Shown: in pieces, positions 4,278 to 38,137 of the stretch
Position numbering within the stretch: the stretch's first letter is position 1
Layout of the letters: each line of letters starts with the position of its first letter
Source of the DNA: an uncultured Granulicella sp.
GTDB taxonomy: Bacteria; Acidobacteriota; Terriglobia; Terriglobales; Acidobacteriaceae
Assembly: GCA_937873265.1 (NCBI GenBank)
Contig: CALMVL010000281.1
Span: 2,157 to 44,948, forward strand
Direction: 5' to 3'
DNA length: 42,792 nt
Made by a program: the position numbers and the translations under genes
The notes under the pieces: model-generated
Told to the model about the DNA's origin: nothing
The model's input: the letters and a program-made list of their open reading frames with translations, nothing else
Databases searched by the model: none

Positions 4278-5987
4278 TTACGGCGACTGCGCCTCGACAT
4301 TTTGCCTTACATTGGCTCCGTGTGTGGGAGAAAGCGGGATCCCGTTTATGAGGTAGCGCGCGAGCGTGGCGGGATCGTGCCAGTTAACGTCCCATCCGCG
4401 GTCGATCGCAACCAGGATGTACTGTCCGGGGCTGACATCACGCAGGTCGAAGCTGCCGTCGGTGTTGGTCTCATCACGGTGCACGACGGGGATGCTCCCT
4501 GGTTGGCCGAGACTCGCCGGGACGAGCAGCACCAAAGCTCCGGAGAGCGGATGTCCTTTGAGGTGACAGATGCCGCGCACAGTGGCCGGCGCGGTCTCGA
4601 CGTGCAGCGTCACGGTCGCGGCGCTTTGCCGCAGATCCAGCACATTGCCGTGCACGTCGGCTCCGGAGGCGGTGATGCCGGTGAGGTAAGCCGAGCCGGC
4701 TCTCGACAGACTGACCCGGTAGCGCCCGGGCGGTGCTTCGAGGGTACGGCCATCGTCCGAGCGACCGGAAAAGCGGCGATGCGGGCCGCGACCTCCGGAC
4801 GGTGGTTCGGCATCCCCGGGAGAAGGTGGAACGAAGTCGAAGCGTGTTCCGCTACCGAGATCGGTCAGGGTAACGAGCGGGCGCTGGGCGTCCTCGGCCA
4901 GACCCTCCAGACGAAAGGTGATGTGCACGGCGGGAAGCGCGGCGGAAAGGTCCAGTTCGCGTTGCGAGCCGGTGGTGACGCGAAGAAAGAGCGATTCACC
5001 ATTCGAAGTGCCCGGAAGCCGTACGCGGTAGAGCCCGGGCGAAAGACCGCCGAGTTCCGCCTGACCGGCTCCATCAAAGACAAGCATGGGTGGCGCGTAG
5101 GCAACGCCGGAGGCGGAGATACGCTCGAGCTGGGGAACGCCGGTCTGCAGCCGGCGCTCGTTGTCGCCGCCGGTCTCTCGGCCCGAGCGGTTGAGGTTCA
5201 CGCGAAGATGAGTCGCCGGAACGGGCAGCAGACTGAAGTCGGCCTCGCGCGTGTCGCCGGGATGCAGCTGGATCGTCTCCGCGGCCTCGGCGTCGGTGGC
5301 GCCGGGAAACCAGGTAACCGGAAACACCACGTCAAAGAGTGGATTCGTGACCGTGCTGCCCGTGCGCTGCACGCGACCCGCAGCCGAGGCATACCACGGC
5401 TGGGCGGAGACGGAAACACGGTAGGATCCAGGTTGCAGACCGCTGAGCTCGTAGTGGCCCCGGTCGTCGGTCTGGCGGATCTGGATGGGCCCGCGTGGTT
5501 GGTCGGTCAGGTCGCTCTGGGCCGCCGGAGCAGGGAAGAGGCTCACCTGCGCTCCACGCACCGGCTCGCCGACGTCGTCCAGAACGAACCCGGCGATGCT
5601 GGAATCAGGCTGGATCCGCAGATCGATTTCCATCTGCGGCGCGGCGGGCGTCAGCACCAGGTCGCTCTGAAAGTTTTCGTGCTGGTCGTAGCCTTGGGGG
5701 AAGAACCCGCGCGCGGACGCCGTAACCTGCCAGCGGCCCGGACCGGAGACGGTGAGGTCAAAGCGACCCTGATCGTCGCTGAAGGCTTCGTTCGTGTTAT
5801 CGGACGTAGACTCGCCGTCAGAGCTTGCGCTGGTCAAATGGAGACGCGCGTGCGGGATCGGGGCGCCATCTCGCGCGCTGTGCACGGCACCCGAGATCCG
5901 GTACACGGGAGAGACCGGAGCCGCCGAGGCGAGCTGACCGAGCCACACCGGCAGCAGAATTCCTAGCAGCCATAAGCGGAGGTTCAC
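4278..5987 (-). CDS. Secreted protein with carboxypeptidase-regulatory-like repeats (second of a pair)
   Basis: I start this 569-residue protein at the GTG at 5987, which overlaps the stop of the preceding gene (GTGA) and directly begins a signal peptide, 'MNLRLWLLGILLPVWLGQLASA'. The mature part holds several beta-sandwich modules of the carboxypeptidase regulatory-like (CarboxypepD_reg/SdrD-B-like) kind. Each has an 'SGxV...GxPVxGAxVxL...TDxxGxYxLxGLxPGxYxV' pattern, for example 'DDVGEPVRGAQVSLFPA', 'RGHYELSGLQPGSYRVSVS' and 'DGSFDLRDVSPGQYILVAI'. Such modules are common in exported acidobacterial proteins. No enzyme domain or TonB-receptor barrel follows. Role unknown; it could be an extracellular or outer-membrane adhesive or scaffold protein. 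Confidence 0.85.
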   Translation of the reverse strand: MNLRLWLLGILLPVWLGQLASAAPVSPVYRISGAVHSARDGAPIPHARLHLTSASSDGESTSDNTNEAFSDDQGRFDLTVSGPGRWQVTASARGFFPQGYDQHENFQSDLVLTPAAPQMEIDLRIQPDSSIAGFVLDDVGEPVRGAQVSLFPAPAAQSDLTDQPRGPIQIRQTDDRGHYELSGLQPGSYRVSVSAQPWYASAAGRVQRTGSTVTNPLFDVVFPVTWFPGATDAEAAETIQLHPGDTREADFSLLPVPATHLRVNLNRSGRETGGDNERRLQTGVPQLERISASGVAYAPPMLVFDGAGQAELGGLSPGLYRVRLPGTSNGESLFLRVTTGSQRELDLSAALPAVHITFRLEGLAEDAQRPLVTLTDLGSGTRFDFVPPSPGDAEPPSGGRGPHRRFSGRSDDGRTLEAPPGRYRVSLSRAGSAYLTGITASGADVHGNVLDLRQSAATVTLHVETAPATVRGICHLKGHPLSGALVLLVPASLGQPGSIPVVHRDETNTDGSFDLRDVSPGQYILVAIDRGWDVNWHDPATLARYLINGIPLSPTHGANVRQNVEAQSP

Positions 5988-7582
5988 GAGGCCGGCTTTC
6001 CGTCCAGTTTGAGAGTGGTCTGAACGCCTGCCTGGATGGTGAATGGCTGCAGCCGAGCGCCAAGGCTGTTGCGCACCGAGGCGTCCAGGAGGTCGGCCGA
6101 CGTCCGATGCTGCAGCACGCACGCGGAGTAGCCCCCGGGGGGGAGGTTCTGTGCGGAGAAGCTGCCATCCGCGGCCGAATGGAGACTGATGATCGGATTG
6201 GCGCTGGGAAAGCTGGGAAGCAACTCGACCCAGAGCGAGACGGGCGCATCGCCACTGGTGACCTGGCCCTGGAGACTGCCGGTGACGTTGCTGACTGTGA
6301 GTTGCAGCGGCGCGGAACCGGTGCCCGCCGCGACCGAGATAGTCGATCCCAGGACATCGCTTCCACCGTAGATGGCCGATTGGATGTACCAGCTGCCGCG
6401 CGCGGACGAGACCAGATGGTAGCGTCCCGGCGACGGAAGGAAACTGGGCGGCCGGCCGCCACGCGATTGCAGGCGAAGGGCATTCTCCCGGCTGCTCCTG
6501 CCTTGCTGCTGTTCGGGAAGCAACTCCAAGCCGAGCTGCTGCGCAGTGGGTGCGGTGGCAGCGGCACTGGCGTGAACGTCCACAACAACCTCGACAGGAA
6601 TGGGCGCGACCGGACTCAGCTGGACCTGGACGCCGGCGAGGTCGTGATCAGGAACAGAGAGGCGGGTCTGGCCGGAGGCGACAAGCTCCGATCCATCTGA
6701 GTTCACCTCGAGCAGATAACTGCCGGCGGGCAGGCGAAGCGAAACCCGGCCCGTCTCCGGGTCAGGCTGGCCGCCCATCTGCCAGGACGCCCCGTCGGCT
6801 GTGGTGACGACTAGGCTCGAAAAGCGGTCATCGGAGAGACCCGGAACGGCGAGCGTGACGGTATGCGCCAGACCCGTGCGCGGCCGAAGCTGGAACTGCT
6901 GCTGCTCGCCGCTCGCAATGTGAAAGGTGGCGACAGCCCCTCCCTCGGGGGCGATGGCGGGCAGTATCGTCATGCCCGTTTCGGGAGAGACGGCCACAAA
7001 CTGAGTCGTCAACTGGTAGTCGCCCGCCGGCACGGGTAAGCGAAACTCACCGTGAGAGTCAGTCTGGGTCGAGCCAAATACCTGAAGGTGTCGATCCGCC
7101 CCGCTGCTGGTCACCTTCCGGGCGGTGACGGTAATCTGGGCAAGCGGCGACCCGTCCTGGGCGACGACGCTGCCGGTCAGCAGAGCTTCGGGGTAAAGAT
7201 AGAGTTCGAGCGTGTGCGCTGCGTCGGCAGCCGAGATCTGGATTCCGGGCGGGTCCGTCTGTTCGGGACTGGTGAAATACCCTGGCTTGGCCACCTCGAC
7301 AAAGCTCGATCCGGCAGGTACGTCCGCCAGGCTGAACTTGCCCTCGTGATCGGTAAAGACGGCAGTGCTGCCGATCTGCACCAGCGCCCGTGGGATTGGC
7401 AGGCCGGAGTTGGCGTTGACCACACGACCGCTGACCGTGGACGACGAGGAGCCTTGGCTCGTGTCCGGCGTCTGCGCCAGCACAGCGGAAACACCCGCAC
7501 AGGCAATCAGGCCGGCAATCAGCGGCAAGCGGGCAATGCGGGCCGAAGCAATGAGTGGCACAACACGTTTCAAGAGTCTCAT
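5984..7582 (-). CDS. Secreted protein with carboxypeptidase-regulatory-like repeats (first of a pair)
   Basis: The 532-residue protein starts with a long signal sequence (hydrophobic core 'LPLIAGLIACAGVSAVLAQ', about residues 19-37). A first carboxypeptidase-regulatory module follows at about 48-115: 'SGRVVNANSGLPIPRALVQ', then 'DHEGKFSLADVPAGSSFVEV'. A second lies near 130-205 ('GSVVAQDGSPLAQITVTAR', 'DSHGEFRLPVPAGDYQLTT'), and further ones near the C-terminus ('GSLQGQVTSGDAPVSLWVE', 'DGSFSAQNLPPGGYSACVL'). It overlaps the next gene by four bases, so the two are translationally coupled. They share architecture and look like diverged tandem relatives. I saw no catalytic motif, and no clear Shine-Dalgarno before the ATG. 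The 249 bases upstream contain no gene; an AT-rich patch at about 7725-7740 could hold the promoter. Confidence 0.85.
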   Translation of the reverse strand: MRLLKRVVPLIASARIARLPLIAGLIACAGVSAVLAQTPDTSQGSSSSTVSGRVVNANSGLPIPRALVQIGSTAVFTDHEGKFSLADVPAGSSFVEVAKPGYFTSPEQTDPPGIQISAADAAHTLELYLYPEALLTGSVVAQDGSPLAQITVTARKVTSSGADRHLQVFGSTQTDSHGEFRLPVPAGDYQLTTQFVAVSPETGMTILPAIAPEGGAVATFHIASGEQQQFQLRPRTGLAHTVTLAVPGLSDDRFSSLVVTTADGASWQMGGQPDPETGRVSLRLPAGSYLLEVNSDGSELVASGQTRLSVPDHDLAGVQVQLSPVAPIPVEVVVDVHASAAATAPTAQQLGLELLPEQQQGRSSRENALRLQSRGGRPPSFLPSPGRYHLVSSARGSWYIQSAIYGGSDVLGSTISVAAGTGSAPLQLTVSNVTGSLQGQVTSGDAPVSLWVELLPSFPSANPIISLHSAADGSFSAQNLPPGGYSACVLQHRTSADLLDASVRNSLGARLQPFTIQAGVQTTLKLDGKPAS

Positions 7583-7831: not shown

Positions 7832-8317
7832 TCAAAAGAGATTCCCTGCCACCGTTTCAGCAACCTGCCTCAGAATCTCCAGCGCTTCGGTTGACTGGGC
7901 GGCAGGAACAGCGGCCGTCGTCACGACGATCGCAAAACTTTTCTCACGGACGGCGCCGCTAACCATCTGCTGCAGCTCCCGTTGCGAGTTGCTCAAGCTG
8001 CATTGACTTGCGTGCGTACCGACGCCGACGACCGCTTTGCTGCCTCGAGCGCACGACGGGTGATCGTTACCGCCAACATAGATCTTGATCTCCTTCCCTG
8101 GCGGCCGACGTAGGACGAAGTCGCAGACACCTTCGGTGCTGCTCCTCAGAGTGACTGTGGCAAGCACCTCGCCCCCTAACGCATGGGTGGCGCTGCCTTC
8201 GGTGAACCACGGGCACTCGGCTGGTGGAGACGGGGTGACCTCTGGCCCTGAGGACAGAGAAGGTTCAAAGGAGTGAAGCACGCAAACCAGAGCCGCACCG
8301 AGACGAACCAGAAACAT
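7832..8317 (-). CDS. Small secreted protein of unknown function
   Basis: The 161-residue protein begins with a short hydrophobic segment ('MFLVRLGAALVCVLHSF') that fits a signal peptide. The remaining part has four cysteines (C35, C65, C89, C106), which could make two disulfides outside the cytoplasm. The segment 'CPWFTEGSATHALGG' resembles one I recall from other acidobacterial hypothetical proteins, but no function is known to me. The start codon lies four bases after the stop of the CRTAC1-like gene, so it is the last gene of the minus-strand operon with the cytochrome and TPR genes. It may act with them outside the cell. Confidence 0.75.
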   Translation of the reverse strand: MFLVRLGAALVCVLHSFEPSLSSGPEVTPSPPAECPWFTEGSATHALGGEVLATVTLRSSTEGVCDFVLRRPPGKEIKIYVGGNDHPSCARGSKAVVGVGTHASQCSLSNSQRELQQMVSGAVREKSFAIVVTTAAVPAAQSTEALEILRQVAETVAGNLF

Positions 8318-8321
8318 CGGT

Positions 8322-10202
8322 CTAAACCTTCACCTGTGGGAGCGGGCCTGACTTGAGGATCTTGCCGCCCTCCTGCAGCACGTGAAGCTGGTTTGCCGGA
8401 AGGTTTCTGAACTGATCGACCTGACCGCTGAGCCAGCGGACTTCGACCAGATCCGCTTTGCTGGCCTGGTCCAGGCCGAAGTGCATCCGGAGATCGTTTT
8501 GCGAGAAGTAGCTCCCGCCGCTCCGCAGCTCATCGGTCTGTTGCAGCGGCTTGGGGGCGTCCGGGCGGGTTTTCGTCGTCACGATCACCCGGCTGCCGAT
8601 GCCGGTGCGATTCGATTTCGTGCCCACCAGCTTGATTTTGATCCAGTTGCGACGGAGGCTCGAGTTGCATCGCAGCAGTTGCGGAATGGCGTTGATGCAG
8701 TTGACAGCGACGTCCATATTGCCGTCGTTATCGTAATCGCCGAAGGCGCAACCGCGAGCGGACGCGTCTTCGAGGATCCCCGGTCCACCCTGGGCCGTCA
8801 CATCCTCGAAACGGCCGTTCTGCAGATTCCGATAAAGATACTTGTGCTCGGCATACTTCAGATCGGCCTTGGAGCGATCGACCTCGGGATAAACATGGCC
8901 GTTGGACATAAGGATGTCCGGCCATCCGTCATTGTCCATATCGAAAAAGCCCACGCCCCAGCCGAGCAGACGCGTATTCTCCCCCAGGCCGCCGGGATAC
9001 GTGTGGTCTTCAAAGACGGCGTTACCGAGGTTCGTGTAAAGCGAGTCGGTGTCACCGGCAAAGTTGGTTTTGACCACGCCCATGTTGCCGTCTCGATTGA
9101 AATCGCCGATGGAGACGCCCATGCCTGCCTGCGGCTTCGCCTCGGCGGAGAGCGCCGCTCCAGCCTCGATGGCGATGTCTCGAAAGGTGCCATCGTGCTG
9201 GTTCTGGTAGAGCGTGGCCGGGGCTGAATCATTGGCGACGTAGATGTCCGGCCAGCCATCGTTGTCGAGGTCAGAAGCAGCGACGCTGAGACCATACGTG
9301 CCCACCGCTGTCCACATACCGGACTTCTCACTGACGTCGGTGAAGGTTCCGTTGCCGTTGTTGTGATACATCAGATTGCGTCCGCCCGGGAGCCCGGGAG
9401 GACCACACGCAACCAGCATTCCCTTATAGGTGCACGGACCATCTTCGGGCAGTGGCGCCGTCTTCAGGTCGAAGTCGACGTAGTTGGCGACAAACAGATC
9501 CAGGTGGCCGTCCCGGTCATAGTCGACAAAGGTGCACCCGGTGTTCCAGCGGATCTTCGGGCCAGGTTGCGCAAGGCCGGCTTGTTCCGTGACATCGGTA
9601 AAGGTGCCGTTGCCATGGTTCCGATACAACGTGTTCTGACCGTAATACGTGACGAACAGATCGTCCTGTCCATCATTGTTGTAGTCGCCAACACAGCATG
9701 CCTGGCCCCAGCCCGTCTTGTGTTCGAGGCCGGAGCCCTTGGTGACATCGGTAAAGGTGCCATCGCGATTGTTCTTAAACAGGTGACATCGAGGCTCCTG
9801 TCCCGCCGGAAAGCCGTCGAGTCTCCACCCGTTGACGAGAAAGATGTCCAGCCATCCATCGCTGTCATAGTCGTAGAACGCAAGACCGCATCCAGTCGTT
9901 TCCAGCAGATACTTGTTGGTCTTCTCACCGCCGTAGATCGTCTTCACCGCGAGACCTGCCTGCTTCACCACATCGGTGTAGCTGAGGCCGAGCGGCGTCC
10001 CTTCCATGGCTGACTTCGGTCCGCCCCCCGGCGGCGGGGCCGGTCTCACATCGTAGCTCCGTTCCTGCGGACCGATCTTGGACGTCGGAGGCGAACCCTG
10101 CTGCGGACTCTGCGCCAGAGCTACGATGTCGGCAAACGGCAGAACAAGGGCTGTGCGGCTCAGAGACCGCAGAAATCGGCGGCGATCGAAACCTTCCTTC
10201 AT
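8322..10202 (-). CDS. CRTAC1/ASPIC-UnbV family exported beta-propeller protein
   Basis: I start this 626-residue protein at the ATG at 10202, which overlaps the preceding cytochrome stop (ATGA) and places a twin-arginine signal at once: 'RRRFLRSLSRTALVLPFA'. The body contains many FG-GAP/VCBS calcium-binding propeller repeats with DxDxDGxxD loops ('DYDSDGWLDIFLVNGW', 'DYNNDGQDDLFVTYYG', 'DYDRDGHLDLFVANY', 'DFNRDGNMGVVKTNF', 'DYDNDGNMDVAVNC'), each followed by a 'NxGNGTFTDVT'-type strand. The last ~95 residues ('NWIKIKLVGTKSNRTGIG' to 'VEVRWLSGQVDQF') match the ASPIC/UnbV domain. Tat export implies folding before secretion. Its biochemical role is not established. The context of a five-heme cytochrome and TPR proteins suggests an extracytoplasmic complex. 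Confidence 0.93.
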   Translation of the reverse strand: MKEGFDRRRFLRSLSRTALVLPFADIVALAQSPQQGSPPTSKIGPQERSYDVRPAPPPGGGPKSAMEGTPLGLSYTDVVKQAGLAVKTIYGGEKTNKYLLETTGCGLAFYDYDSDGWLDIFLVNGWRLDGFPAGQEPRCHLFKNNRDGTFTDVTKGSGLEHKTGWGQACCVGDYNNDGQDDLFVTYYGQNTLYRNHGNGTFTDVTEQAGLAQPGPKIRWNTGCTFVDYDRDGHLDLFVANYVDFDLKTAPLPEDGPCTYKGMLVACGPPGLPGGRNLMYHNNGNGTFTDVSEKSGMWTAVGTYGLSVAASDLDNDGWPDIYVANDSAPATLYQNQHDGTFRDIAIEAGAALSAEAKPQAGMGVSIGDFNRDGNMGVVKTNFAGDTDSLYTNLGNAVFEDHTYPGGLGENTRLLGWGVGFFDMDNDGWPDILMSNGHVYPEVDRSKADLKYAEHKYLYRNLQNGRFEDVTAQGGPGILEDASARGCAFGDYDNDGNMDVAVNCINAIPQLLRCNSSLRRNWIKIKLVGTKSNRTGIGSRVIVTTKTRPDAPKPLQQTDELRSGGSYFSQNDLRMHFGLDQASKADLVEVRWLSGQVDQFRNLPANQLHVLQEGGKILKSGPLPQVKV

Positions 10203-12499
10203 CGCGCTCCGCCCTCTCCGGGCGCAGCCTGTGCTGCTGCATCGGTGTGCACGTGCCACGGCACACTCTCATTCGAGATCTCCGGGTGCTTGCGAAGGTA
10301 CGAGAGCGAATACGTCGGCGCGGCCGGGTCGATCCACTTCATCGCGTACTGTGCCGACTCCCTGTTCGCCTCCTGCTTCATGCCGAGCCGGCGATACAAA
10401 ATCGCGAGATTGTAGTGCGCGGCGAGATCATCCGGATCGACCGCTTGAAGCCGCTTGAAGGTGGCCACGGCCTCCTGCACCCGGTGCTGCTGGTAATAGC
10501 TGATCCCGAGCTCCCGCAATGGGTCGCGCGCCTGCGGGTACTGGGCCACGACCTCATTGAGGTCGGCGATCTCAGCCTCGGAGTGCCGTGAGCGCCGCTC
10601 CACCAGCGCCAGGTAGTAAAGCGCCCGGGCATCGTGCGGCGCGAGCGCAAGCGCCTTTTCCAAAGGGGCACGAGCCTCGCCGTACTTCTCCCACTCGATG
10701 GAATCGAGCCCGAGATTGACGTAGCCGTCCTTGTAATCCGGGCGCAGCAGAACGACCTTCTCGAACGCCTCTTTCGCCTCCGCATACTGCAGCTGGTCGA
10801 GGTAACTGATCCCGAGATTGTTCCACCGCATCCACTCCGGATTGTCGTTTGCCAGTGCCGGCGCAGGCGCGTTGGGTCCAATGCTGATCGTCCGTGTACG
10901 CGACGCGATCTCGACGACCGGGTACGCTGGATGATCCGCCCCAAGCACGTGGTTCAGATAGCTCTGTCGCAGATGGCGGTACTCGACCGCGGCCTTGATC
11001 TGGATCGGCCCTTTCACCTCGCTCGGCAGCTGGAACCGGTAACGCACCAGCGTCGATCGGCCGGACTGAATCGAGTTATCGTAGGCGACGGAGTGGATCG
11101 CCCAGACCCTGTGATTGTCGACAAAGCTCCCCGTCGCATCCACCGGCCGATTGGTAAAGCTGTGTGCGCCGGGGTCCAGTGTTCCATCCGGCCGGAGAAA
11201 TCCACTTCGGTAGATGATCTTCCCTGCCGTGTCCGTAACGGTAAAAGCCACCCAGGCTTCGTATAAGTCACGCACCTCCGGAATGAGAGAGTGGCCGATA
11301 AACTTGCTCTGGATCACCACGTCAGTCTCGATCGTATCCCTTGCTGCGATCGTAAAAGGCAACGTCCCGAGCGGAGCGATGAGCGGTGCTGCTCGTTCGT
11401 GGGCTGCGTCCCCGCTCCCGGCGTTCACAACGCGCAGGCCGAAAAGATCCACGTTGAGGAAATTGCCCGACTTGAGAAAGTCAGTCGTCTTGTCCAGCTG
11501 CTCCGCGAAGCCGTAGTAAAAGGGAACAGCGGTATTGCCTGCCGGCCATCGATGGGAGGCCAACATGCCGTTCTTGGCGCCCGGATCCGGCAGCGCCGTG
11601 GCTTCCCGACGCATGTGGCAGCCCTGACAGGTTGTGTAATCGGCCGTATAGAAGACCAGTGGATTCTGTTTGGAGTACTTCGATCCCTGCCAGTCGTCAT
11701 AGGCGCTGAAGGCGCGAATCCACTTGTAGTCGTTCAGCATCACGGGCAAATTAGCCTTGTGGCACGCCGAGCAGAACTCAGGCGATCGATAAATGGGCTG
11801 CATCACCGCCTTGTCGTGCCGATCCAAGTGAGCCAGGATCTCGCTATCCGGCACCATGCCGGGGATGCGCTTACCCTGTTCGTCGACCAGCACGGCCGGA
11901 ACTGCCATCGTGTAGCTGCCGTTTCCCAGCTTGCTATCCACCTTCTGAATGGAATGGCAGACGCTGCAGGTCAGCCCATCCGAGTCGAAGCTTCGATTGC
12001 CGCTGGCGCCAGGGGTCAGCGAGCCGGAGAGCACCGCGATCGGATTATGGCAGCTGTCGCAGTGCCTCGCGAACTCAATCCCCTTCTCCTTCAGCAGCAG
12101 GTTCACGCTCGTACGGTAAAACGGCGTTCGGAAAGAATTGGAATGCAATGCCTGTCGCCATTGGTGAAAAGCCTCCTGGTGGCAATGACCGCAGTACTGG
12201 GCAGTGGGGAACGCACCCGGCTGCACGAAATCGTCCCCTTCCATCGCCGCGTTTCCAGGCAGAGAAAGCTTGCCGCTACCGTAGACCGCTTCCGCCGAGC
12301 CCGGGGAGATGTATTTGTAAGCCGTGCGAGTCTTGTCGGCGTACGCCTTTCGCTCGGCCGCCTGCTGAGCGGTCCGATCCTCGGCAGCCTGCGCGGCGTG
12401 CACGATGGACCCGCCGAGCCAGACAACGCCGCAGCCAATTGCCCCGAAAAGCAGGCTGCGGAACGCGTTTCGCACCGAAAATGCCGTCACAAACACCAC
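10199..12499 (-). CDS. Exported five-heme cytochrome c with C-terminal TPR repeats
   Basis: The 766-residue protein has an N-terminal hydrophobic anchor or signal ('FRSLLFGAIGCGVVWLGGSIVHA', shown here only as residues 13-35). Five c-type heme sites (CxxCH) follow: C103GHCH, C147DSCH, C178SVCH, C243SACH and C291QGCH, an arrangement like the cytochrome c-554 family. A beta-rich region (about 350-545) with several scattered histidines that could be distal heme ligands precedes four or more TPR units (about 555-725). The heme part should be outside the cytoplasm, where c-type maturation occurs. The gene lies between a TPR gene (79-base gap) and the CRTAC1-like gene (4-base overlap). An electron-transfer role is inferred from the hemes; donor and acceptor are unknown. 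Confidence 0.92.
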   Translation of the reverse strand: MVFVTAFSVRNAFRSLLFGAIGCGVVWLGGSIVHAAQAAEDRTAQQAAERKAYADKTRTAYKYISPGSAEAVYGSGKLSLPGNAAMEGDDFVQPGAFPTAQYCGHCHQEAFHQWRQALHSNSFRTPFYRTSVNLLLKEKGIEFARHCDSCHNPIAVLSGSLTPGASGNRSFDSDGLTCSVCHSIQKVDSKLGNGSYTMAVPAVLVDEQGKRIPGMVPDSEILAHLDRHDKAVMQPIYRSPEFCSACHKANLPVMLNDYKWIRAFSAYDDWQGSKYSKQNPLVFYTADYTTCQGCHMRREATALPDPGAKNGMLASHRWPAGNTAVPFYYGFAEQLDKTTDFLKSGNFLNVDLFGLRVVNAGSGDAAHERAAPLIAPLGTLPFTIAARDTIETDVVIQSKFIGHSLIPEVRDLYEAWVAFTVTDTAGKIIYRSGFLRPDGTLDPGAHSFTNRPVDATGSFVDNHRVWAIHSVAYDNSIQSGRSTLVRYRFQLPSEVKGPIQIKAAVEYRHLRQSYLNHVLGADHPAYPVVEIASRTRTISIGPNAPAPALANDNPEWMRWNNLGISYLDQLQYAEAKEAFEKVVLLRPDYKDGYVNLGLDSIEWEKYGEARAPLEKALALAPHDARALYYLALVERRSRHSEAEIADLNEVVAQYPQARDPLRELGISYYQQHRVQEAVATFKRLQAVDPDDLAAHYNLAILYRRLGMKQEANRESAQYAMKWIDPAAPTYSLSYLRKHPEISNESVPWHVHTDAAAQAAPGEGGAR

Positions 12500-12578
12500 A
12501 ACCGCAAATTATAGAGAGATTGCGGCAGAGTTGGATACACAGCTCTGACCAACGATGGGCGCGTGTCCATGCCTGGGT

Positions 12579-14342
12579 TCAGGGCGTCGTAGCCACCATC
12601 TTCGATCGCTCCGCGGCCGCCTCGGCCGATCTTCCCTGAGCCTCGTACACCTTGGCCAGCCCGGCATGCGCATCGCGGTACGCCGGGTCAAACGTCAAAG
12701 CGCCGTTGAATTGCACGATTGCACCCGCCAGGTCGCCGCTCTTCAGTAACGATTCGCCGCTGTGAGTCGCCACCTCGGCGCGTTGACGATTCATCGTACT
12801 TCGCATCAGGTCGGCAGCGGTTTTGCGCTCAACGGCGGCCTGATCCGGCTTACCCTGCTTCACCAGGACAGCCGCGAGCGTGAGGTGAGGTTCCGGTTGC
12901 CCGGGAAGTTGCGCGATCGCCATACGGAGCGCCGCCTCTGCATCGACCAGCTGCGACAGCTTACTGTAGACGCTACCGAGCGTTGCCCAGCCGTCACCAT
13001 TCTTGGGCTGCATCGCCAATGCAGCCTTCAACTCGCGGCTCGCCTCCTCATATCGTCCGCTCTGCATATACAGCATGCCCAGCGCGTAGACCGCTTCCGG
13101 CTGATGGGGGTCGAGCTTTTCCGCCTGCTCATACTCGGCAATCGCATCGGCGGCGTCATCCTTCAGCTTGTACGCCACACCCAGGTTATAGTGCAGCTGC
13201 GGAGAGTCTGGATCGAGCACCATCGCCGCGCGCAGCTGAACGACGGCATCGTCGAACTGATTCAACTGGATGGAGGCTGCGGCAAGGTCCTCCCGTGCGG
13301 TCACATTCTTTGGCGAAAGGCTCACGGCCTTTTGCAAAAGCGGCAACGCCGCCTCTGCATTTTTCTGCTGGCAGAGAGCCATGCCGAGATTCGTAAGGAC
13401 GTCGGCATTCTCGGGCTCCGCCGCGCTTACCGTCTCATAGAGCGGCACGGCTTCGTCCGTCCTGCCAGCGCGCTGCAGCGCCAGCGCAAGCTGATAAGTC
13501 ACCTCCATCGGATGTCGCGGCAGCTCGTTCGCCTTTTCGAGCACCGGAATCGCGTGGTCATCGTCGCCCGCGCCAGCAAGACTCCGTCCGTACTCAAGGT
13601 CGACGATCGGGTTTTCCGGTGCGAGCCGGTAAGCCGCCGCCAGCTCGTCCTTGCCTTCCGGCCGCTGCTGGGCCGCAAGGGCAAGTCCCAGATGCAGGTG
13701 CGCGGACGCCATCGCGTGATCGGAGGAAAGAGCCGCGCGAAAGTTGCGTTCCGCGTTCGGCCAGTCCTGCTGCATCGCATACAGTGATCCGAGATCGTCC
13801 AGCAAACCCGCATCGTGTGGGTCTGCCGAGACTGCGGTGCGCATCTGCGTGATCGCAGCCGGGATCTGGTGCGTCGCCGCCAGGGCTCGCGCGTACAGGG
13901 CAGAGGTACTCGCCGGCAACACCCGCTTTTCCGCTCGCTCCACCTTGTTGAGCCGCGCCAGCACCTCGACGACCTTCTCCGGCTGACCCAGCTGTTCGTA
14001 CGCGAGTGCCAGATTCGAGCCCGCGCCGACATCCGCGGGGTTCTTCCTGAGCACCTGTTGGAACTCCGGCACACTTTCCTGCGCATTGCCGAGCTTCAAC
14101 AGGACAAAGCCGAGGGCGCTATGCAGCGCGGTCGGCGAAGGATCGAGACGCACGGCTTGCCGGAAGTCGGCCAGGGCTGTTTGCAGGTCGCCTCTGGCCA
14201 CCGCAGCAGAGCCTGCCCGGTACGCCGCCTCCGCCTGCTTTGCCTGGACTGGCTCCTGTGGACTCGCAGTGCTGGCAGAAGCGATGACAAATACCACGCC
14301 GGAGACCGCTTTCTGCCCGAATTTGCGAACCGCCTTGTACAT
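12579..14342 (-). CDS. Secreted tetratricopeptide-repeat protein
   Basis: This 587-residue protein starts with a signal-like segment ('KAVSGVVFVIASASTAS', about residues 11-27). Almost all the rest is TPR helices, about fourteen units in two blocks, with the usual small/large residue pattern: 'ALADFRQAVRLDPSPTALH', 'NLALAYEQLGQPEKVVEVL', 'HLGLALAAQQRPEGKDELA' and 'HYNLGVAYKLKDDAADAIAE'. TPRs bind proteins, so it may be the scaffold of the operon. It is the first gene of a minus-strand series with the cytochrome, CRTAC1-like and small secreted protein genes. The 153 bases between it and the divergent glycosyltransferase gene must hold its promoter; I could not identify a convincing one. Confidence 0.9.
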   Translation of the reverse strand: MYKAVRKFGQKAVSGVVFVIASASTASPQEPVQAKQAEAAYRAGSAAVARGDLQTALADFRQAVRLDPSPTALHSALGFVLLKLGNAQESVPEFQQVLRKNPADVGAGSNLALAYEQLGQPEKVVEVLARLNKVERAEKRVLPASTSALYARALAATHQIPAAITQMRTAVSADPHDAGLLDDLGSLYAMQQDWPNAERNFRAALSSDHAMASAHLHLGLALAAQQRPEGKDELAAAYRLAPENPIVDLEYGRSLAGAGDDDHAIPVLEKANELPRHPMEVTYQLALALQRAGRTDEAVPLYETVSAAEPENADVLTNLGMALCQQKNAEAALPLLQKAVSLSPKNVTAREDLAAASIQLNQFDDAVVQLRAAMVLDPDSPQLHYNLGVAYKLKDDAADAIAEYEQAEKLDPHQPEAVYALGMLYMQSGRYEEASRELKAALAMQPKNGDGWATLGSVYSKLSQLVDAEAALRMAIAQLPGQPEPHLTLAAVLVKQGKPDQAAVERKTAADLMRSTMNRQRAEVATHSGESLLKSGDLAGAIVQFNGALTFDPAYRDAHAGLAKVYEAQGRSAEAAAERSKMVATTP

Positions 14343-27143: not shown

Positions 27144-30110
27144 ATGGAGAACAGCTTCCAAACTCGGGTCCTTGCCGTCGCTCTGGCGGTGGTGACCCTG
27201 GCTGCCTGCATCCTCGCCGCGATCAATCTTCATAACGAAACCAACTTCGAGACCCCGACCGACGGCGTCATGTGGCGCGAAACGCAGGGCGGCCTTCTCG
27301 CCGACCGGGTTCCCGTTGGATCTCCGGCCGAGCGCGCGGGCGTACGCCGGGGCGACCTCCTTACGGCTGTGAACGACCACGCGACGCCAAGGTCGGCTGC
27401 GCTGGTCCGGCAGCTCTACCGAAGTGGCATCTGGGGGCACGCCACGTACTCGATCGTGCGCCCGATCACCTCCCCAGCCAGACCGCGGATGCCCGTCCAC
27501 CTCGAGATCCAGGTCATCCTGGAGCCGACCAACCGCTCCATCAACGATGGCCTGCGATTGATCGCCATGGTCTATCTGTCCATCGGCATCTACGTCCTGT
27601 TTCGTCGCTGGACCGCGCCGAAGTCGACCCACTTCTATATCTTCTGCCTGGTCTCGTTCGTTCTCTACGCTTTCAAGTACACCGGCGAGTTCGACCTGAC
27701 AGATTGGACCGTGTACTGGTGTAACATCCTGGCCGCGTCGTTGCAGCCGGCGCTTTTCCTCCACTTCGCGGTCAGCTTCACCAGCCAAACCGAAGCGAAC
27801 CGCAACCGTCTCGGTCGCGGCGCCCTCGTCGCTCTGCTCTATCTGCCTGGAGCTGTGCTGGTCGCTTTGCAGATCGCTGCGCTCCACCTCTGGTCGGCGA
27901 CCGAGGTTCTCCGTCACCGGCTGGACCAGATCGATGTCGGATACCTCGCCCTCTACTACGTCATTGCGGCAATCGTCTTTTCCAGCCGCTACCGTCGGGC
28001 TGCCTCAGGGCTCGAGCGACAGCAGCTGAAATGGCTCACGCGCGGAACCTTCCTTGCGGTCACTCCGTTCACTCTGCTGTACGCCATCCCCTACGTCGGC
28101 GATCTACCCGCGCCCGATCTTCTGACCAGGTTGTCGGTGCTGTCGCTTGTCTTCATTCCGCTCACCTTCAGCTGGGCCATCGTGCGCTACCGGCTGATGG
28201 ACGTAGACCTCATCTTCAAGCGCGGCGTGACGTACACGCTCGCGACAGCCGCCCTGCTCGGCCTCTATTTTGGTGCGATCGCCATTGCTGCCGAAACCGT
28301 CCACACCCGGTTGCCCAGTCTGCGGGTCTGGGGTCTGCTGGCAGGTCTCATCGTCACCGGTCTCATCTTTGAACCGCTCAAGCGGCTCATCCAGGCCCGC
28401 GTCGATCGCATCTTCGATCAGAAGCGTATCGACTATCGCGAGACCCTGGTCGAGTTCGGCCGGGGTCTCAGCTCCGAGACCGATCTCGACACCCTGATCC
28501 GCTCGATCGTCGAACGCCTGACACAGACCTTGCTGGTCACCAAGGTCGCCGTTTTTCTTGCTTCGGATGATGCCCACCCGCACTTCACGTTGGCTGCCTC
28601 GAACGGCCTTGCCAACCTGCAAGCCGAACACAGCGTGCCTCTCGACCTTGGCTTTCTCGACTTTGACCGCGCCAACTCCCAGCACCACCTCTTCTTCGAT
28701 AATCCCCAGCACGTCCTCCGACTCTCATCCGCGCAGCGGATCAGCGCTGCGCGGCTCGATCTGAACTACTATCTCCCCTGCCACGTCGGGCGGCACGAGA
28801 GATCCGGAACCCACACCGTCGCGGTCATCGGCCTTGGCCGCACCGACTTCGGCGATTTCCTGTCGAGCGAGGACGTCGAACTGCTGCAGTCCCTGGCCGG
28901 ATACATCGGCATCGCAATCCAGAACGCAAAGCTCTACTGCACCCTTGAGCAGAAAATCCGGGACTTCGAACGGCTCAAGGAGTTCAACGAGAACATCGTC
29001 GAATCCATCAATATCGGCGTACTCGCGGTCGATCTCGAAGATCGCGTCGACAGCTGGAATCAACAGATGGAGACCATGTTCGGCGTCCCTCGCGAAGCCG
29101 CCCTCCGGCAGACACTGCAGTCGCTCTTCTCAGCCGAGTTCCTCACCCACTTCGATCGCGTCCGCAACGAACGCGAAACCCACACACTTTATAAGTTCCG
29201 GCTGCAGCTCCCCTCGGGCGATCTGCGTACCGCCAATATCGCCATCGCTCCCTTGCTCACGCGCGATCTTGCAACCGTCGGTCGAACCATCCTGATCGAC
29301 GACATCACCGACCGCATCCAGCTCGAGACCCAGCTCACCCAGGCAGAAAAACTCTCCTCCATCGGCCTCCTCGCCGCCGGCGTCGCCCACGAGGTCAACA
29401 CGCCGCTCGCTGTCATCTCGAGCTACACCCAGATGCTGACCAAGCAAATGAGCTCAGACCCGCGTCTCGCACCGGTCCTTGCGAAGATCACGCAGCAGAG
29501 CTTCCGCGCCTCCGAAATCGTCAATGGCCTGCTTAATTTCTCGCGCACGGGCTCGACCGAATTTACCAGCCTCAACCTCAACGATCTTGTCCGCGACACG
29601 CTCACCCTGCTCGATCACCAGATGAAAACCGCGCGCATCCAGCTCGATCTCGACCTCGATCCTGCCCTCGCGCTGGTCCACGGCAATCAGGGAAAACTGC
29701 AGCAGGTCATGCTTAATCTCCTCATGAACGCGAAGGACGCCATGGTCCGCCTTCCGGATGCACGCATGTCCGTTACCACCGGGAACATGGATCGGTCGGC
29801 TTATTTGCGCATCTCCGACTCGGGCGCAGGCATTGCCCACGAACACCTCCATCGCATCTACGATCCCTTCTTTACCACCAAGACCAGGCCCCAACCTGGC
29901 GAACACAAGGGCACGGGGCTCGGTTTGGCCGTCACCTACGGCATCGTGCAGGAGCACGGCGGAAAGATCCACGTCGAAAGCGAGCTCGGCCTGGGAACCA
30001 CGTTTCTGCTCGAATTCCCTGCCTTGCGGACTGCCGGTCCTCTCGCCCAGGGGCTGCCGCCATCGTCGCAAGAGCCCGTTACGCCGGGAGGATCGATCCT
30101 GCATGCCTGA
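27144..30110 (+). CDS. Membrane sensor histidine kinase (PDZ, multi-TM, GAF, PAS, HisKA, HATPase)
   Basis: The 988-residue kinase has an unusual layout. One N-terminal membrane segment (about 8-28) is followed by a PDZ-like domain outside the membrane (about 45-125; 'DRVPVGSPAERAGVRRGD'). Then come seven or more hydrophobic segments (about 135-410), a GAF domain (about 435-600), a PAS domain (about 612-725; 'NIVESINIGVLAVDLED'), and the kinase core. The phosphoacceptor is H749 in 'GVAHEVNTPLAVISSY'. ATP-binding boxes are N ('MLNLLMNAKDAM'), G1 ('ISDSGAGI'), F ('YDPFFTTK') and G2 ('KGTGLGLAVTYGIV'). The end overlaps the response-regulator gene by eight bases, so the two make a two-component pair. 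The signal sensed is unknown; the PDZ suggests a peptide or protein ligand. Confidence 0.93.
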   Translation: MENSFQTRVLAVALAVVTLAACILAAINLHNETNFETPTDGVMWRETQGGLLADRVPVGSPAERAGVRRGDLLTAVNDHATPRSAALVRQLYRSGIWGHATYSIVRPITSPARPRMPVHLEIQVILEPTNRSINDGLRLIAMVYLSIGIYVLFRRWTAPKSTHFYIFCLVSFVLYAFKYTGEFDLTDWTVYWCNILAASLQPALFLHFAVSFTSQTEANRNRLGRGALVALLYLPGAVLVALQIAALHLWSATEVLRHRLDQIDVGYLALYYVIAAIVFSSRYRRAASGLERQQLKWLTRGTFLAVTPFTLLYAIPYVGDLPAPDLLTRLSVLSLVFIPLTFSWAIVRYRLMDVDLIFKRGVTYTLATAALLGLYFGAIAIAAETVHTRLPSLRVWGLLAGLIVTGLIFEPLKRLIQARVDRIFDQKRIDYRETLVEFGRGLSSETDLDTLIRSIVERLTQTLLVTKVAVFLASDDAHPHFTLAASNGLANLQAEHSVPLDLGFLDFDRANSQHHLFFDNPQHVLRLSSAQRISAARLDLNYYLPCHVGRHERSGTHTVAVIGLGRTDFGDFLSSEDVELLQSLAGYIGIAIQNAKLYCTLEQKIRDFERLKEFNENIVESINIGVLAVDLEDRVDSWNQQMETMFGVPREAALRQTLQSLFSAEFLTHFDRVRNERETHTLYKFRLQLPSGDLRTANIAIAPLLTRDLATVGRTILIDDITDRIQLETQLTQAEKLSSIGLLAAGVAHEVNTPLAVISSYTQMLTKQMSSDPRLAPVLAKITQQSFRASEIVNGLLNFSRTGSTEFTSLNLNDLVRDTLTLLDHQMKTARIQLDLDLDPALALVHGNQGKLQQVMLNLLMNAKDAMVRLPDARMSVTTGNMDRSAYLRISDSGAGIAHEHLHRIYDPFFTTKTRPQPGEHKGTGLGLAVTYGIVQEHGGKIHVESELGLGTTFLLEFPALRTAGPLAQGLPPSSQEPVTPGGSILHA

Positions 30111-31554
30111 AATGACAGAAAGCATCGAGATCGTACGCGATCCGGTCTCGTCGCCCAACGGCAACGGCGACAAACGGTCGCACATCCTGCTGATTGACGA
30201 TGAGGCCGCCATTCGCGACTCCATCGACACGCTGCTCACACTCGAAGGGTTTTCCGTCACCCTCGCTCCCGAAGGGACCACGGGACTGGACCTCCTCGCG
30301 CGCAACGAGTACGACCTTCTCCTGCTCGACCTCTCGCTCCCCGGCGAGAGTGGCATCGATCTGCTGCCGCGCATCACCGAGCTCCAACCCCGGCTGCCGA
30401 TCATCATGATTACCGCCTTCGGCACCGTCGGCAACATCGTCGACGCGATCCGCGCCGGTGCCGAGAACTTCATCCAAAAGCCCTGGGACAACGAGAAACT
30501 GCTCGCCGACATCCGCGGCGCAATCGCCAGGCACAGGGCCGAAGACGAGGTCATCCAGCTCAAACGAGCTCTCAAACAGCGCTACAGCTTTGAGAACATC
30601 GTCGGCAAAAGCGACCCGATGCTGCGCCTCTTCGACACCGTCGCCCAGGTCGCCCCCAGCCGATCAACTGTTCTTCTCCAAGGCGAAAGCGGTACAGGGA
30701 AGGAGCTCATTGCGAAAGCCATCCACGCCAACTCTCCCCGCCGCGACCGCCCCTTCGTCCCCGTCAACACCGGCGCCGTCCCGTCGGAGCTGCTCGAGTC
30801 CACCCTCTTCGGCCACGTGCGCGGCGCCTTCACCTCCGCCGTCAACTCCAAAAAGGGTCTCTTCGAGGTCGCCCACGGCGGCACCCTCTTTCTGGACGAG
30901 ATCGGCACCATGGGCATGGACATGCAAGCCAAAATCCTGCGCGTGCTGCAGGATCGCCGCTTCATGCAGCTCGGCGGCACTCAGGAGATCCAGGTCGACG
31001 TCCGCATCATCGCCGCGACCAACGTCAACCTGCAGAACGCGGTCCGCGAAGGCCGCTTCCGCGAAGACCTCTTCTATCGGCTCAACGTCATCTCGCTCGA
31101 GCTCCCCCCGCTTCGCTCCCGCAAGCAGGACATTCCGCTGCTGGCCGCGCACTTCCTCAAGTTCTACAGCGAAGAGAACGGCGTCTCCGAGCGAGTCCTG
31201 GCTCCCGAAGCCCTCCGCATCATGATGGACTACGAGTGGCCCGGTAACGTCCGCGAGCTCGAAAACTGCATCGAGCGTGGCGTCGTCCTCTCCACCGCGC
31301 GCGTCATCCCGCCCGAACTGCTCCCCCAGCAGGTCACCGGCAGCACCTACTCGGCCAGCATCCTCGAGCACCGGCCCGACACCTCCCTCTTCGACCTGAT
31401 GGAAGAGATCGAGCGGCGCATCATCGCCGACCGCCTGGAGCGCTGTCACTGGAACCAGACCGAGGCCGCAGAATACTTCAAGATTCCGCTTTCCACGCTC
31501 AACCAGAAAATCAAGCGCCTCAGCGTCGAAGTCCGCAAGCGCTCTCGCGACTAG
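30103..31554 (+). CDS. NtrC-type sigma-54-dependent response regulator
   Basis: I use the ATG at 30103, with GGGAGG at 30086-30091 upstream, giving 483 residues; the upstream frame extension lies inside the kinase gene. The receiver domain (about 26-142) has acidic pocket D32/D33, phosphoacceptor D76 ('LLLLDLSLPG') and K126 ('FIQKPW'). The AAA+ domain (about 163-400) has Walker A 'GESGTGKE' (194-201), Walker B 'TLFLDEIG' and arginine-finger region 'FREDLFYRLNV'. The sigma-54 contact loop reads GAFTSA (241-246) rather than GAFTGA. A Fis-type helix-turn-helix ends the protein ('WNQTEAAEYFKIPLSTLNQ'). It should activate sigma-54 promoters after phosphorylation by the preceding kinase. Its stop overlaps the convergent dehydrogenase gene's stop by three bases. 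Confidence 0.95.
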   Translation: MPEMTESIEIVRDPVSSPNGNGDKRSHILLIDDEAAIRDSIDTLLTLEGFSVTLAPEGTTGLDLLARNEYDLLLLDLSLPGESGIDLLPRITELQPRLPIIMITAFGTVGNIVDAIRAGAENFIQKPWDNEKLLADIRGAIARHRAEDEVIQLKRALKQRYSFENIVGKSDPMLRLFDTVAQVAPSRSTVLLQGESGTGKELIAKAIHANSPRRDRPFVPVNTGAVPSELLESTLFGHVRGAFTSAVNSKKGLFEVAHGGTLFLDEIGTMGMDMQAKILRVLQDRRFMQLGGTQEIQVDVRIIAATNVNLQNAVREGRFREDLFYRLNVISLELPPLRSRKQDIPLLAAHFLKFYSEENGVSERVLAPEALRIMMDYEWPGNVRELENCIERGVVLSTARVIPPELLPQQVTGSTYSASILEHRPDTSLFDLMEEIERRIIADRLERCHWNQTEAAEYFKIPLSTLNQKIKRLSVEVRKRSRD

Positions 31555-32672
31555 CGCCCCGGCTTCAGCACAATCTTCATCGAGTTCGGCTGCGGTGTCG
31601 ACGCCAGATCGATCGCCGCCTGAGCTTCCCGCAATGGAAATCGATGCGAAATCAGCCGGGTCAGATCCAGGCTGCCATCCCGATACCCGTCAAACACCAG
31701 CTGAACCGCCTCCTCCTGGATGGCCACCGAAGCGCTGTAAGACCCCATCAGGGTCTTCTCGTCCATGCACACCGCCGCCGGATCGAAGTTCGCCGTGCCA
31801 TGCTGCGTGCTGGCAAACAGCATAACCCGCCCGCCCGGCCGAACCGCATCGAGGGCCCTCGGGATCAGCGCATCCGCCCCCACGGCAATGAGCACCACAT
31901 CCACGCCGCGCCCGTCCGTCACCGCCTTACCTGCTGCGATCAGGTCCTCGCCCGCCGGAACCGGCCGGTCAAGCCCAAATCGGCGCGCGGCCTCGTAACG
32001 CTCCGCAAAAAGATCCGACGTAAGCACCGTGGCGCCCGTGCGCCGCGCCAGAGCTCCCAGCAGAATGCCGATCGGCCCCTGCCCGAGCACCAGCACCGTC
32101 TCATCCGGCGCAAGCGCGAGCATGCGAATCGCCTTGAAGCAGGTGTTGACCGGCTCGATAAACAACGCCTGTTCGAACGGAACATCGGCGGGAATGTTCA
32201 CCATGCCGCTCTCAACAATCCAGTCCATCACGCGAATGTACTCGGCAAATCCACCACCGGCCGCCGCTCCCAGTCCCGCCGTCGTGCCCACCTCCTTGTA
32301 GCGCTCGCACTGCGCAAACGTCTGCTTGCGGCAGTAGTAGCAAGCGCCGCACGGGATGTGATGAAAGGTCATCGCGCGGTCACCCACGGCGAACTTCGTC
32401 ACGCCTGCCCCAACGGCCGCAACCGTGCCCGCCATCTCATGCCCAAACACCCGCGGCGCCGCATGCGATCCCGTATGAATCTTCTTCAGATCCGTCCCAC
32501 AGATCCCGCAGCTGTCGATGCGCAGAAGCACCTCTCCCGGACCGATCTCCGGGATCGCGATCTCCTCGGTCCGAACATCGTTCACGCCGCGATACACGGC
32601 CGCCAGCATCGTGCCCGGAGTCCCGGCCGGAGCGGTGGACAGAGTTGGCGTGGAAACAACAGCAGTGGTCAT
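31551..32672 (-). CDS. Zinc-dependent alcohol dehydrogenase (MDR family) of the hopanoid operon
   Basis: The 373-residue enzyme belongs to the medium-chain dehydrogenase/reductase family, close in motif style to threonine or sorbitol dehydrogenases. The catalytic zinc site uses C58 ('CGICGTDLK'), H78/E79 ('FGHEMAG') and E173-like ('FIEPVNTCFKA'). A full structural-zinc lobe is present (C108, C111, C114, C122 in 'IPCGACYYCRKQTFAQCE'). The NAD(P)-binding loop is 'VLVLGQGPIGILLGAL'. Its ATG overlaps the hpnG stop (ATGA), so it is translationally coupled to hopanoid genes and is the last gene of the operon. A role in reducing the ribosyl side chain of the hopanoid is inferred from position; the substrate is otherwise unknown. 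Confidence 0.9.
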   Translation of the reverse strand: MTTAVVSTPTLSTAPAGTPGTMLAAVYRGVNDVRTEEIAIPEIGPGEVLLRIDSCGICGTDLKKIHTGSHAAPRVFGHEMAGTVAAVGAGVTKFAVGDRAMTFHHIPCGACYYCRKQTFAQCERYKEVGTTAGLGAAAGGGFAEYIRVMDWIVESGMVNIPADVPFEQALFIEPVNTCFKAIRMLALAPDETVLVLGQGPIGILLGALARRTGATVLTSDLFAERYEAARRFGLDRPVPAGEDLIAAGKAVTDGRGVDVVLIAVGADALIPRALDAVRPGGRVMLFASTQHGTANFDPAAVCMDEKTLMGSYSASVAIQEEAVQLVFDGYRDGSLDLTRLISHRFPLREAQAAIDLASTPQPNSMKIVLKPGR

Positions 32673-34416: not shown

Positions 34417-34438
34417 TCCCCCCAGCTCACACCGTGGC

Positions 34439-34888
34439 TCAGTCCAGCTTCTCCGGAACGATCTGAATGTCTTTTTCGCCCGCCGCCTTCTTCTCCCAGT
34501 ACTTCTTCACCCACGCATCGAAGCTCTTGCCCGCGGCAGTATCCCGGCCCGTGAACGCGAGCGCGACAATCTCCCCGTAGGGAATGCTGCGCTTCGTACG
34601 ATCGCCGTTCGCCGGGATCACCCGCACCATCGAGTCCCCAAGCGTCGACCCGCTCTTCCGGTCGAACACATACCCCTGAACGACCTCGCCCGACCGCAGC
34701 GTCAGGCTCACGTCGCCCCGGTAATCAAACGCCCGCTCGAGCGCATCGCGTACCTCGGCCTCGGTCGCCATCTGCGGGATCGACCCCTCAAGCTGCTCCC
34801 GCTCGCGCCCGGCAATCACCTCCAGCTCGTCCGCGTTCGTTCGCCTCAGCTGCTCGATCTTCAGGTGCTCCTGTTCTGCCGTCGCCAT
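34439..34888 (-). CDS. Uncharacterised protein in the hopanoid operon
   Basis: I do not recognise a named family for this 149-residue cytoplasmic protein. It has a charged helical N-terminus (about 1-55, 'LKIEQLRRTNADELEVI'). A beta-rich middle (about 58-115) follows: 'YRGDVSLTLRSGEVVQGYVFD', given here only as residues 56-76, then 'DSMVRVIPANGDRTK' and 'IPYGEIVALAFTGRD'. The strand-turn-strand pattern with a conserved-looking 'GEVVQGYV' recalls small Sm-like or SH3-like barrels. The C-terminus is again charged ('DAWVKKYWEKKAAGE'). The start at 34888 lies two bases after the hpnH stop, and hpnA begins 22 bases downstream. Cotranscription with hopanoid genes is therefore near certain, though its function is unknown. 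Confidence 0.8.
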   Translation of the reverse strand: MATAEQEHLKIEQLRRTNADELEVIAGREREQLEGSIPQMATEAEVRDALERAFDYRGDVSLTLRSGEVVQGYVFDRKSGSTLGDSMVRVIPANGDRTKRSIPYGEIVALAFTGRDTAAGKSFDAWVKKYWEKKAAGEKDIQIVPEKLD

Positions 34889-34890
34889 GG

Positions 34891-36030: not shown

Positions 36031-36061
36031 CCGAATCTTCTCCTCGTCATCCTTCGCTCGG

Positions 36062-38104: not shown

Positions 38105-38137
38105 CAATGAGGTAAGCCTCCGGCGAGCTACTTCCAT

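Follow-up and report, generated by a model that had tools for sequence, protein, structure and literature searches.

A Pentaheme Cytochrome Partnered by CRTAC1 Propeller Genes in Acidobacteriota: A Conserved and Apparently Undescribed Gene Pair

Introduction

A multiheme cytochrome encoded next to a propeller protein of the CRTAC1/UnbV kind raises the question of whether the two work together and, if so, at what. The question is posed here by a four-gene cluster of an uncultured Granulicella sp. (Acidobacteriota), which lies in a stretch of 42,792 nucleotides (assembly GCA_937873265.1, contig CALMVL010000281.1, positions 2,157 to 44,948 of the forward strand), referred to below as the window. 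According to the list of open reading frames (ORFs) of the window, the four genes run head to tail on the minus strand, 14342 to 7832. In the order of transcription they encode a 587-amino-acid tetratricopeptide repeat (TPR) protein, a 766-amino-acid protein with five hemes and TPR, a 626-amino-acid CRTAC1 propeller, and a small protein of 161 amino acids. The gaps between them are 79, −4 (an ATGA overlap), and 4 bases, a spacing from which a single transcript is predicted. The initial annotation of this DNA had described the same layout, and the ORF coordinates bear it out. Its five hemes are present as CGHCH, CDSCH, CSVCH, CSACH, and CQGCH, its propeller and two TPR proteins are recovered by Pfam (FG-GAP_3, UnbV_ASPIC, and TPR families), and the twin-arginine translocation (Tat) signal that it gave to the propeller corresponds to a Tat-type motif, DRRRFL.

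We know of no established bacterial function for UnbV/ASPIC proteins. A stable partnership with a pentaheme cytochrome offers a concrete and testable function hypothesis for some of them, and the pairing may point to a path of electron transfer in soil bacteria that has gone unrecognised. Its carriers include Granulicella, Bryocella, and Acidipila, some with strains in culture collections. The genes lead us to propose an extracytoplasmic complex for electron transfer, whose pentaheme cytochrome is scaffolded by TPR and serves the CRTAC1 subunit; we regard this proposal as evenly balanced between right and wrong.

The Heme-CRTAC1 Pairing in Acidobacteriota

The heme domain and UnbV were sought in a sample of 297 Acidobacteriota genomes. 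The former is found at an E-value (E) of 1e-10 in 109 genomes, and at least one UnbV domain is present in 140. Where the heme match is strong (E 1e-25), UnbV accompanies it in 85 of 88 genomes, as compared to 55 of the 209 others (Fisher 2e-32, a value that is indicative only, as the sampled genomes are related). At the level of the locus, 80 stretches around heme matches picked for spread were examined together with 22 loci of close relatives and the window; L070 is without a heme match, and L069 and L098, each split in two, are counted once. A UnbV domain is found no farther than 3.5 kb from the heme domain in 77 of the 102 loci with a heme match, on the same strand in 76 of the 77, and 55 times downstream and 22 times upstream of the heme gene. 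Among the stretches picked for spread, the count is 56 of 80. The expectation by gene density is about 0.018 UnbV per gene, a figure that is slightly low, with per-genome UnbV counts topping out at 19. The link between heme gene and CRTAC1 is not due to chance, and the pair is phylum-wide in Acidobacteriota. This pairing supports the extracytoplasmic redox system that the initial annotation had put forward. Conservation beyond the lineage, on which that proposal had also been staked, holds for the pair but not for the four genes as a set, whose full order was recovered in only 7 loci out of 102 (L050-L151), namely L050, L051, L052, L057, L068, L069, and L071. All seven come from the 22-locus search of close relatives, and none of the 80 spread stretches has it. 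The exact four-gene order is local, whereas the pair is widespread.

Relatives of the heme gene occur in named organisms such as Granulicella paludicola, Bryocella elongata, and Acidipila rosea, and in other loci of the window's family CRTAC1 stands upstream of the heme gene instead. The position directly after the heme gene is taken by a gene with one heme motif in 13 loci (L061-L063, L066, L079-L082, L086, L088, and L091-L093; for example, L063:12178-12540) and by a small secreted protein in 7. Both one-heme genes tested (L063 and L086) are cytochrome c by Pfam, and no relative of the 161-amino-acid protein was found in the 13 one-heme-gene loci. It is mainly the Acidobacteriaceae part of the sample that has the one-heme and small secreted families. 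A third phylum-wide partner besides CRTAC1 and TPR was not recognised by clustering of the neighbours, in which the other clusters lacked annotation and which, being based on longest ORFs, missed some true genes at high GC. An acidobacterial-type heme gene is also borne by L067, a contig filed under a Mucilaginibacter metagenome-assembled genome (MAG), and is probably a contamination of that MAG. No description of a pentaheme-TPR-CRTAC1 cluster was found in the open-licence literature, which is weak evidence of absence; the partnership is real, conserved, and apparently undescribed.

The Pentaheme Cytochrome and Its Kin

A profile of the heme domain, built from 43 diverse members, was run against solved structures. 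Pentaheme cytochrome c552 (5ze8) comes out first (E 9.1e-10, strongest over about the first 100 profile positions), followed by c554 (8e-4) and, weakly, by the multiheme selenoprotein MccSep (0.013). The initial annotation had seen in this protein a fusion of c554-like and TPR parts. The TPR part stands, and Pfam does assign Cytochrome_C554 (E 2.6e-7) beside several TPR families, but the profile places the heme part nearer to c552, the pentaheme protein, than to c554. The match itself named only a cytochrome c552, which we take, also in view of PMC11976967, to be that of Thermochromatium tepidum. With c552 (5ze8), ExtKL, and MccSep, the window protein shares five c-hemes, a W..S.H-type motif after heme 1, which recurs in the alignment with 5ze8, and a beta-domain histidine before P-x-G, which is common to the alignments in low-scoring segments; the predicted model is beta-rich at residues 345-545. 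Unlike all three, it has a C-terminal TPR domain and a CRTAC1 neighbour.

PMC11976967 unites ExtKL, Gsu2801, and proteins of cable bacteria in one pentaheme family, which has an Ig-like domain and resembles in structure both the c552 of T. tepidum and an archaeal cytochrome nanowire. The cable-bacteria members are placed there among potential catalytic cytochromes with a penta-coordinate heme, and the role proposed for ExtKL is extracellular electron transport. The window protein scores 17.6 bits with the ExtKL equivalog NF040886, far under the cut-off of 250, while 34 of the 43 family members match this model at E 0.01 or better. An MtrC/MtrF-like Pfam match is found in 41 of the 43. With five motifs rather than ten, and 12.8 versus 209.3 bits for TIGR03507, the protein is not an OmcA/MtrC decaheme cytochrome. 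On present evidence, it belongs to the pentaheme c552/ExtKL kind, as a variant that bears TPR and is linked to CRTAC1, and is not a new kind of system.

This kinship, together with the ExtKL and MtrC/MtrF-like matches and the comparison with a nanowire in that source, also fits an ordinary extracellular electron-transfer cytochrome acting on Fe(III), humics, or electrodes, to which CRTAC1 would be merely a surface or adhesive companion. Such a role is unlikely in our estimation: what recurs around the heme gene is CRTAC1 and TPR, joined locally by one-heme or small secreted genes. None of the neighbours was recognised as a conduit gene, a comparison weakened by the other neighbour clusters lacking annotation.

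Turning to the hemes themselves, both cysteines and the histidine of all five motifs are kept in 99 of 99 aligned rows. Motif 1 is CX4CH and not CxxCH in 20 of the 98 heme proteins (L100, L102, L104, L122, L134, L135, L137-L145, and L147-L151). The family has nine invariant histidines, versus ten axial positions for five hemes, so that one heme may be open or have a non-histidine ligand. That one heme may be without a conserved distal histidine is suggested by conservation, which also designates the candidate ligands listed in Table 1. One of them, His403, is embedded in GHS..PE in the window protein and in GHsfPtG in many relatives, and a similar motif is present in 5ze8 and MccSep. The candidates come from conservation alone because the AlphaFold model, built from 19 rows, has a pLDDT of mostly 26-47 over the heme part; the structural route to the heme ligands was dropped for this reason. 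Structural comparison of the model returned TPR-type matches, mainly over residues 392-727, and the lack of pentaheme structures in the list of matches is no evidence against the kinship, the heme part of the model being unreliable.

TPR Domains and the CRTAC1 Partners

TPR is carried by 88 of the 98 heme proteins tested. For five of the ten without it, TPR is found in the reading frame of the CRTAC1 next door, and two more lie within 5 kb of a separate TPR gene; none was found for the remaining three (L141, L143, and L150, the first two on short contigs). A domain that moves in this way between two neighbours ties them functionally, although it does not prove binding. It is in keeping with the view of TPR as likely assembly elements in the initial annotation, and TPR is probably the glue between cytochrome and CRTAC1.

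The trees of the two partners were made with quick methods and contain several long branches. Those of CRTAC1 separate the partners into clades: one holds the window type, another the upstream type, a third, large one downstream partners, and a further one goes with TPR-less heme proteins. The heme tree unites the window type with five upstream-type genes in a single supported group of 15. The two CRTAC1 trees, which carry no approximately unbiased (AU) test, do not trace all heme-linked CRTAC1 rows to one origin; different CRTAC1 subfamilies fill the partner place in different heme clades. It follows that a CRTAC1 partner was retained by the heme gene, but not always one of the same subfamily. 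Partners may have been exchanged, or different CRTAC1 copies may have been lost from an ancestral cluster rich in them, such as that of L085, where TPR, three CRTAC1, and heme genes lie together.

The trees also bear on the idea that CRTAC1 and TPR make up a nutrient system with an outer-membrane TonB receptor, the heme gene being a passenger between them. In Granulicella tundricola and in L088, TPR/CRTAC1/CRTAC1 genes lie near a TonB receptor with no heme gene between, a CRTAC1/TPR pair follows a carboxypeptidase-regulatory-domain gene in Acidisarcina, and the window CRTAC1 clade is sister to CRTAC1 clades of TonB-type modules. Against this, families far apart in the phylum have a CRTAC1 of one clade or another beside the heme gene, and the heme gene of G. 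tundricola, on the same replicon, has a CRTAC1 of its own just upstream. We consider this idea decidedly improbable.

The window propeller itself is a CRTAC1/ASPIC-UnbV protein by Pfam, with FG-GAP_3 (8e-54) and UnbV_ASPIC (3.5e-20) both over cut-off. Its sole solved sequence relative at E 0.01 is human CRTAC1 (9etn, E 2.3e-14), a secreted animal protein for which we know of no redox setting. Signal peptides were assigned by motif and by visual inspection. A loose Tat motif is matched by 13 of 14 CRTAC1 rows of the window clade (the 14th is truncated) and by 4 of 4 sister rows, as compared to 1 among the 15 upstream partners and 10 among the 44 remaining downstream ones; to the eye, the non-Tat partners look Sec-, lipoprotein-, or anchor-like. 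Tat is thus a regular feature of the window clade and its sisters only, and it is no sign of a cofactor common to the family. A search for an active site specific to the heme link, in 73 linked versus 47 unlinked CRTAC1 rows, returned differing columns and no clear metal or cofactor site, and the Asp-rich calcium-type loops are conserved alike in both sets. The suggestion of the initial annotation that Tat export points to a folded cofactor protein is not sustained by these results.

Heme and CRTAC1 Relatives in Other Settings

Outside Acidobacteriota, heme relatives were found in plasmid records of Shinella (2), Nitratiruptor (2), and Aeromonas (1), and three cases were viewed. In Shinella and Nitratiruptor, the heme gene lies between genes for imelysin and a small membrane protein and a gene for an FTR1 iron permease. 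These sets of imelysin, DUF4405-like membrane protein, pentaheme, and FTR1 genes (L153:6200-11671 and L154:6410-11360) are a possible cytochrome-linked iron uptake system. Against the DUF4405 cut-off of 26.7 bits, the small membrane protein scores above in Nitratiruptor (31.9), where it also has a sub-threshold b561 match, and below in Shinella (23.7). Both cytochromes match the heme and beta profile of the window family over nearly its full length (205.9 and 197.7 bits), with five CxxCH motifs and four extra histidines that align by eye. They differ from the window protein in their length of about 500 amino acids, in the iron-permease gene set, and in having no CRTAC1 in the viewed stretches. 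The Aeromonas stretch has no annotation; its record (L155, NZ_AP026896.1, Aeromonas caviae) is filed as a plasmid, although at 4.9 Mb it is chromosome-like by size.

If the acidobacterial cytochrome likewise altered the redox state of iron, with CRTAC1 or a TonB receptor handling the metal, the cluster would serve iron (metal) acquisition. The resemblance to the plasmid sets, over both heme and beta domains and with the DUF4405 result in Nitratiruptor, speaks for this. The cytochrome is, however, the only component that the plasmid sets and the acidobacterial loci share, in a comparison that included no search aimed at FTR1 or imelysin in the latter, and metal acquisition appears to us quite unlikely.

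A chemistry of nitrogen oxides, or one like that of hydrazine synthase (HZS), has also to be weighed. In PMC12758564, CRTAC1 genes of non-anammox bacteria are described alongside genes resembling HZS alpha and HZS beta-gamma; the acidobacterium Paludibaculum fermentans belongs to the clade concerned. As in the window, CRTAC1 is there beside genes of periplasmic heme proteins, some with c554 domains, but the heme partners are HZS-like (PMC12758564). A heme possibly without a distal ligand would suit such a chemistry. The window proteins gave no HZS match in Pfam or NCBIfam, libraries that were not confirmed to hold HZS models, and their architecture differs. This explanation is very improbable.

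A further setting is the enediyne cassette of Streptomyces plasmids, six of which were viewed out of 43 records, two of them chosen because RnfD is named there. CRTAC1 precedes an RnfD-like (2) or an "enediyne biosynthesis" (4) protein in all six. The CRTAC1 gene of this cassette goes by the name of UnbV. In L156:5572-8627 and L157:5929-8918, CRTAC1 stands directly before the RnfD-like membrane protein, and this arrangement suggests that the latter is an electron-transfer partner of the enediyne CRTAC1. The likeness to the window is that CRTAC1 directly adjoins a protein of electron-transfer type; the difference is a setting of DUF1702 and polyketide synthase with no heme or TPR gene annotated alongside. 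The cassette itself (DUF1702, RnfD-like protein, and polyketide synthase beside CRTAC1) is not what adjoins the window propeller gene, which has TPR, heme, and small secreted genes as its direct neighbours.

A broader reading is that CRTAC1/UnbV propellers are a general extracytoplasmic class of redox partners or catalytic subunits that have repeatedly been wired to one or another protein delivering electrons, here to a pentaheme cytochrome of c552 type and in other settings to HZS-like heme proteins or to membrane proteins like RnfD. Acidobacteriota would then carry a phylum-wide, undescribed enzyme of this class, with TPR domains as its interchangeable coupling. It is conceivable, but we hold it as doubtful.

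Proposed Mechanism

In the electron-transfer complex proposed here, the 766-amino-acid protein, as one of the c552/ExtKL kind, would very likely pass electrons along its hemes, and small molecules could bind at the one heme without a conserved distal histidine. The TPR domain of the cytochrome, aided in the window by the separate TPR protein, would dock the CRTAC1 propeller. The latter would be the subunit on the substrate side, which would hold or convert a periplasmic or surface substrate while the cytochrome carries electrons. Because a monoheme gene stands beside many of the paralogs, electrons probably enter or leave through small c-type cytochromes.

Several observations weigh against this proposal. 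UnbV is missing within 3.5 kb in 25 of the 102 loci; some of these are at contig ends, and others are genuine absences in the stretch (e.g., L081, L089, L090, and L094). Conversely, 55 genomes have UnbV and no strong heme match. The two annotated heme relatives viewed outside Acidobacteriota are in an iron-transport setting without CRTAC1, and the heme part of the predicted structure is of low confidence. Finally, three of four other named CRTAC1 settings on plasmids have no annotated redox partner alongside: in Hymenobacter CRTAC1 is with TonB/SusD genes, in Acidisarcina it lies between carboxypeptidase-regulatory-domain and TPR genes with no heme gene in the viewed stretch, and the third is Halocatena. 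The fourth, in Alteromonas, includes PQQ-dehydrogenase, Rieske, and hydroxy-acid-oxidase genes. The link of CRTAC1 to electron transfer is therefore recurrent and not universal.

Features of the Cluster and Its Surroundings

Table 1: Features of the four-gene cluster, in window positions.
Feature	Position	Strand	Remark
TPR-repeat protein, 587 aa	12579..14342	-	Pfam; Sec-like N-terminus by eye
Pentaheme cytochrome with beta domain and TPR repeats, 766 aa	10199..12499	-	Hydrophobic N-terminus
Heme motif 1, CGHCH (residues 103-107)	12179..12193	-	
Heme motif 2, CDSCH (residues 147-151)	12047..12061	-	
Heme motif 3, CSVCH (residues 178-182)	11954..11968	-	
Heme motif 4, CSACH (residues 243-247)	11759..11773	-	
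Heme motif 5, CQGCH (residues 291-295)	11615..11629	-	
His119 (W..S.H-type motif), candidate distal ligand	12143..12145	-	Invariant, 99/99 rows
His228, candidate distal ligand	11816..11818	-	Invariant, 99/99 rows
His316, candidate distal ligand	11552..11554	-	Invariant, 99/99 rows
His403 (beta domain), candidate distal ligand	11291..11293	-	Invariant, 99/99 rows
Beta-rich domain, about residues 345-545	10865..11467	-	AlphaFold model
TPR domain, about residues 555-720	10340..10837	-	Pfam, AlphaFold model, structural comparison
CRTAC1/FG-GAP-UnbV propeller protein, 626 aa	8322..10202	-	ATG start; longest frame from GTG at 10259
Tat-type motif DRRRFL (RRRFL)	10170..10184	-	In propeller protein
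UnbV_ASPIC domain	8382..8603	-	Pfam
Small secreted protein, 161 aa	7832..8317	-	Secreted-looking N-terminus

Many TPR families are assigned by Pfam to the 587-amino-acid protein, whose relatives, 48-57% identical, lie upstream of the heme gene in the seven loci with the complete order. The small protein has four cysteines that are invariant across 12 aligned rows and no Pfam or NCBIfam match. Its predicted model is good (pLDDT 84), and structural comparison gave nothing better than E 0.013; a DcrB/Tsi3-like fold is a lead only.

The host genome (3.6 Mb, 73% complete) contains TatC and genes of cytochrome c assembly type, nine UnbV domains, and a second heme gene, 54% identical, after which comes a small ORF with one heme motif (L091). 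A promoter scan of the window returned one promoter-like site, downstream of the four genes, as compared to 1.5 in shuffled sequences. Beyond the four genes come carboxypeptidase-regulatory-domain and glycosyltransferase genes. Two proteins with carboxypeptidase-regulatory-like domains follow it on the same strand (4278-7582), and their ORFs overlap by 139 bases. From about 28 kb onwards (28001-42000), the GC skew is strongly negative (−0.19 to −0.31), unlike the remaining window.

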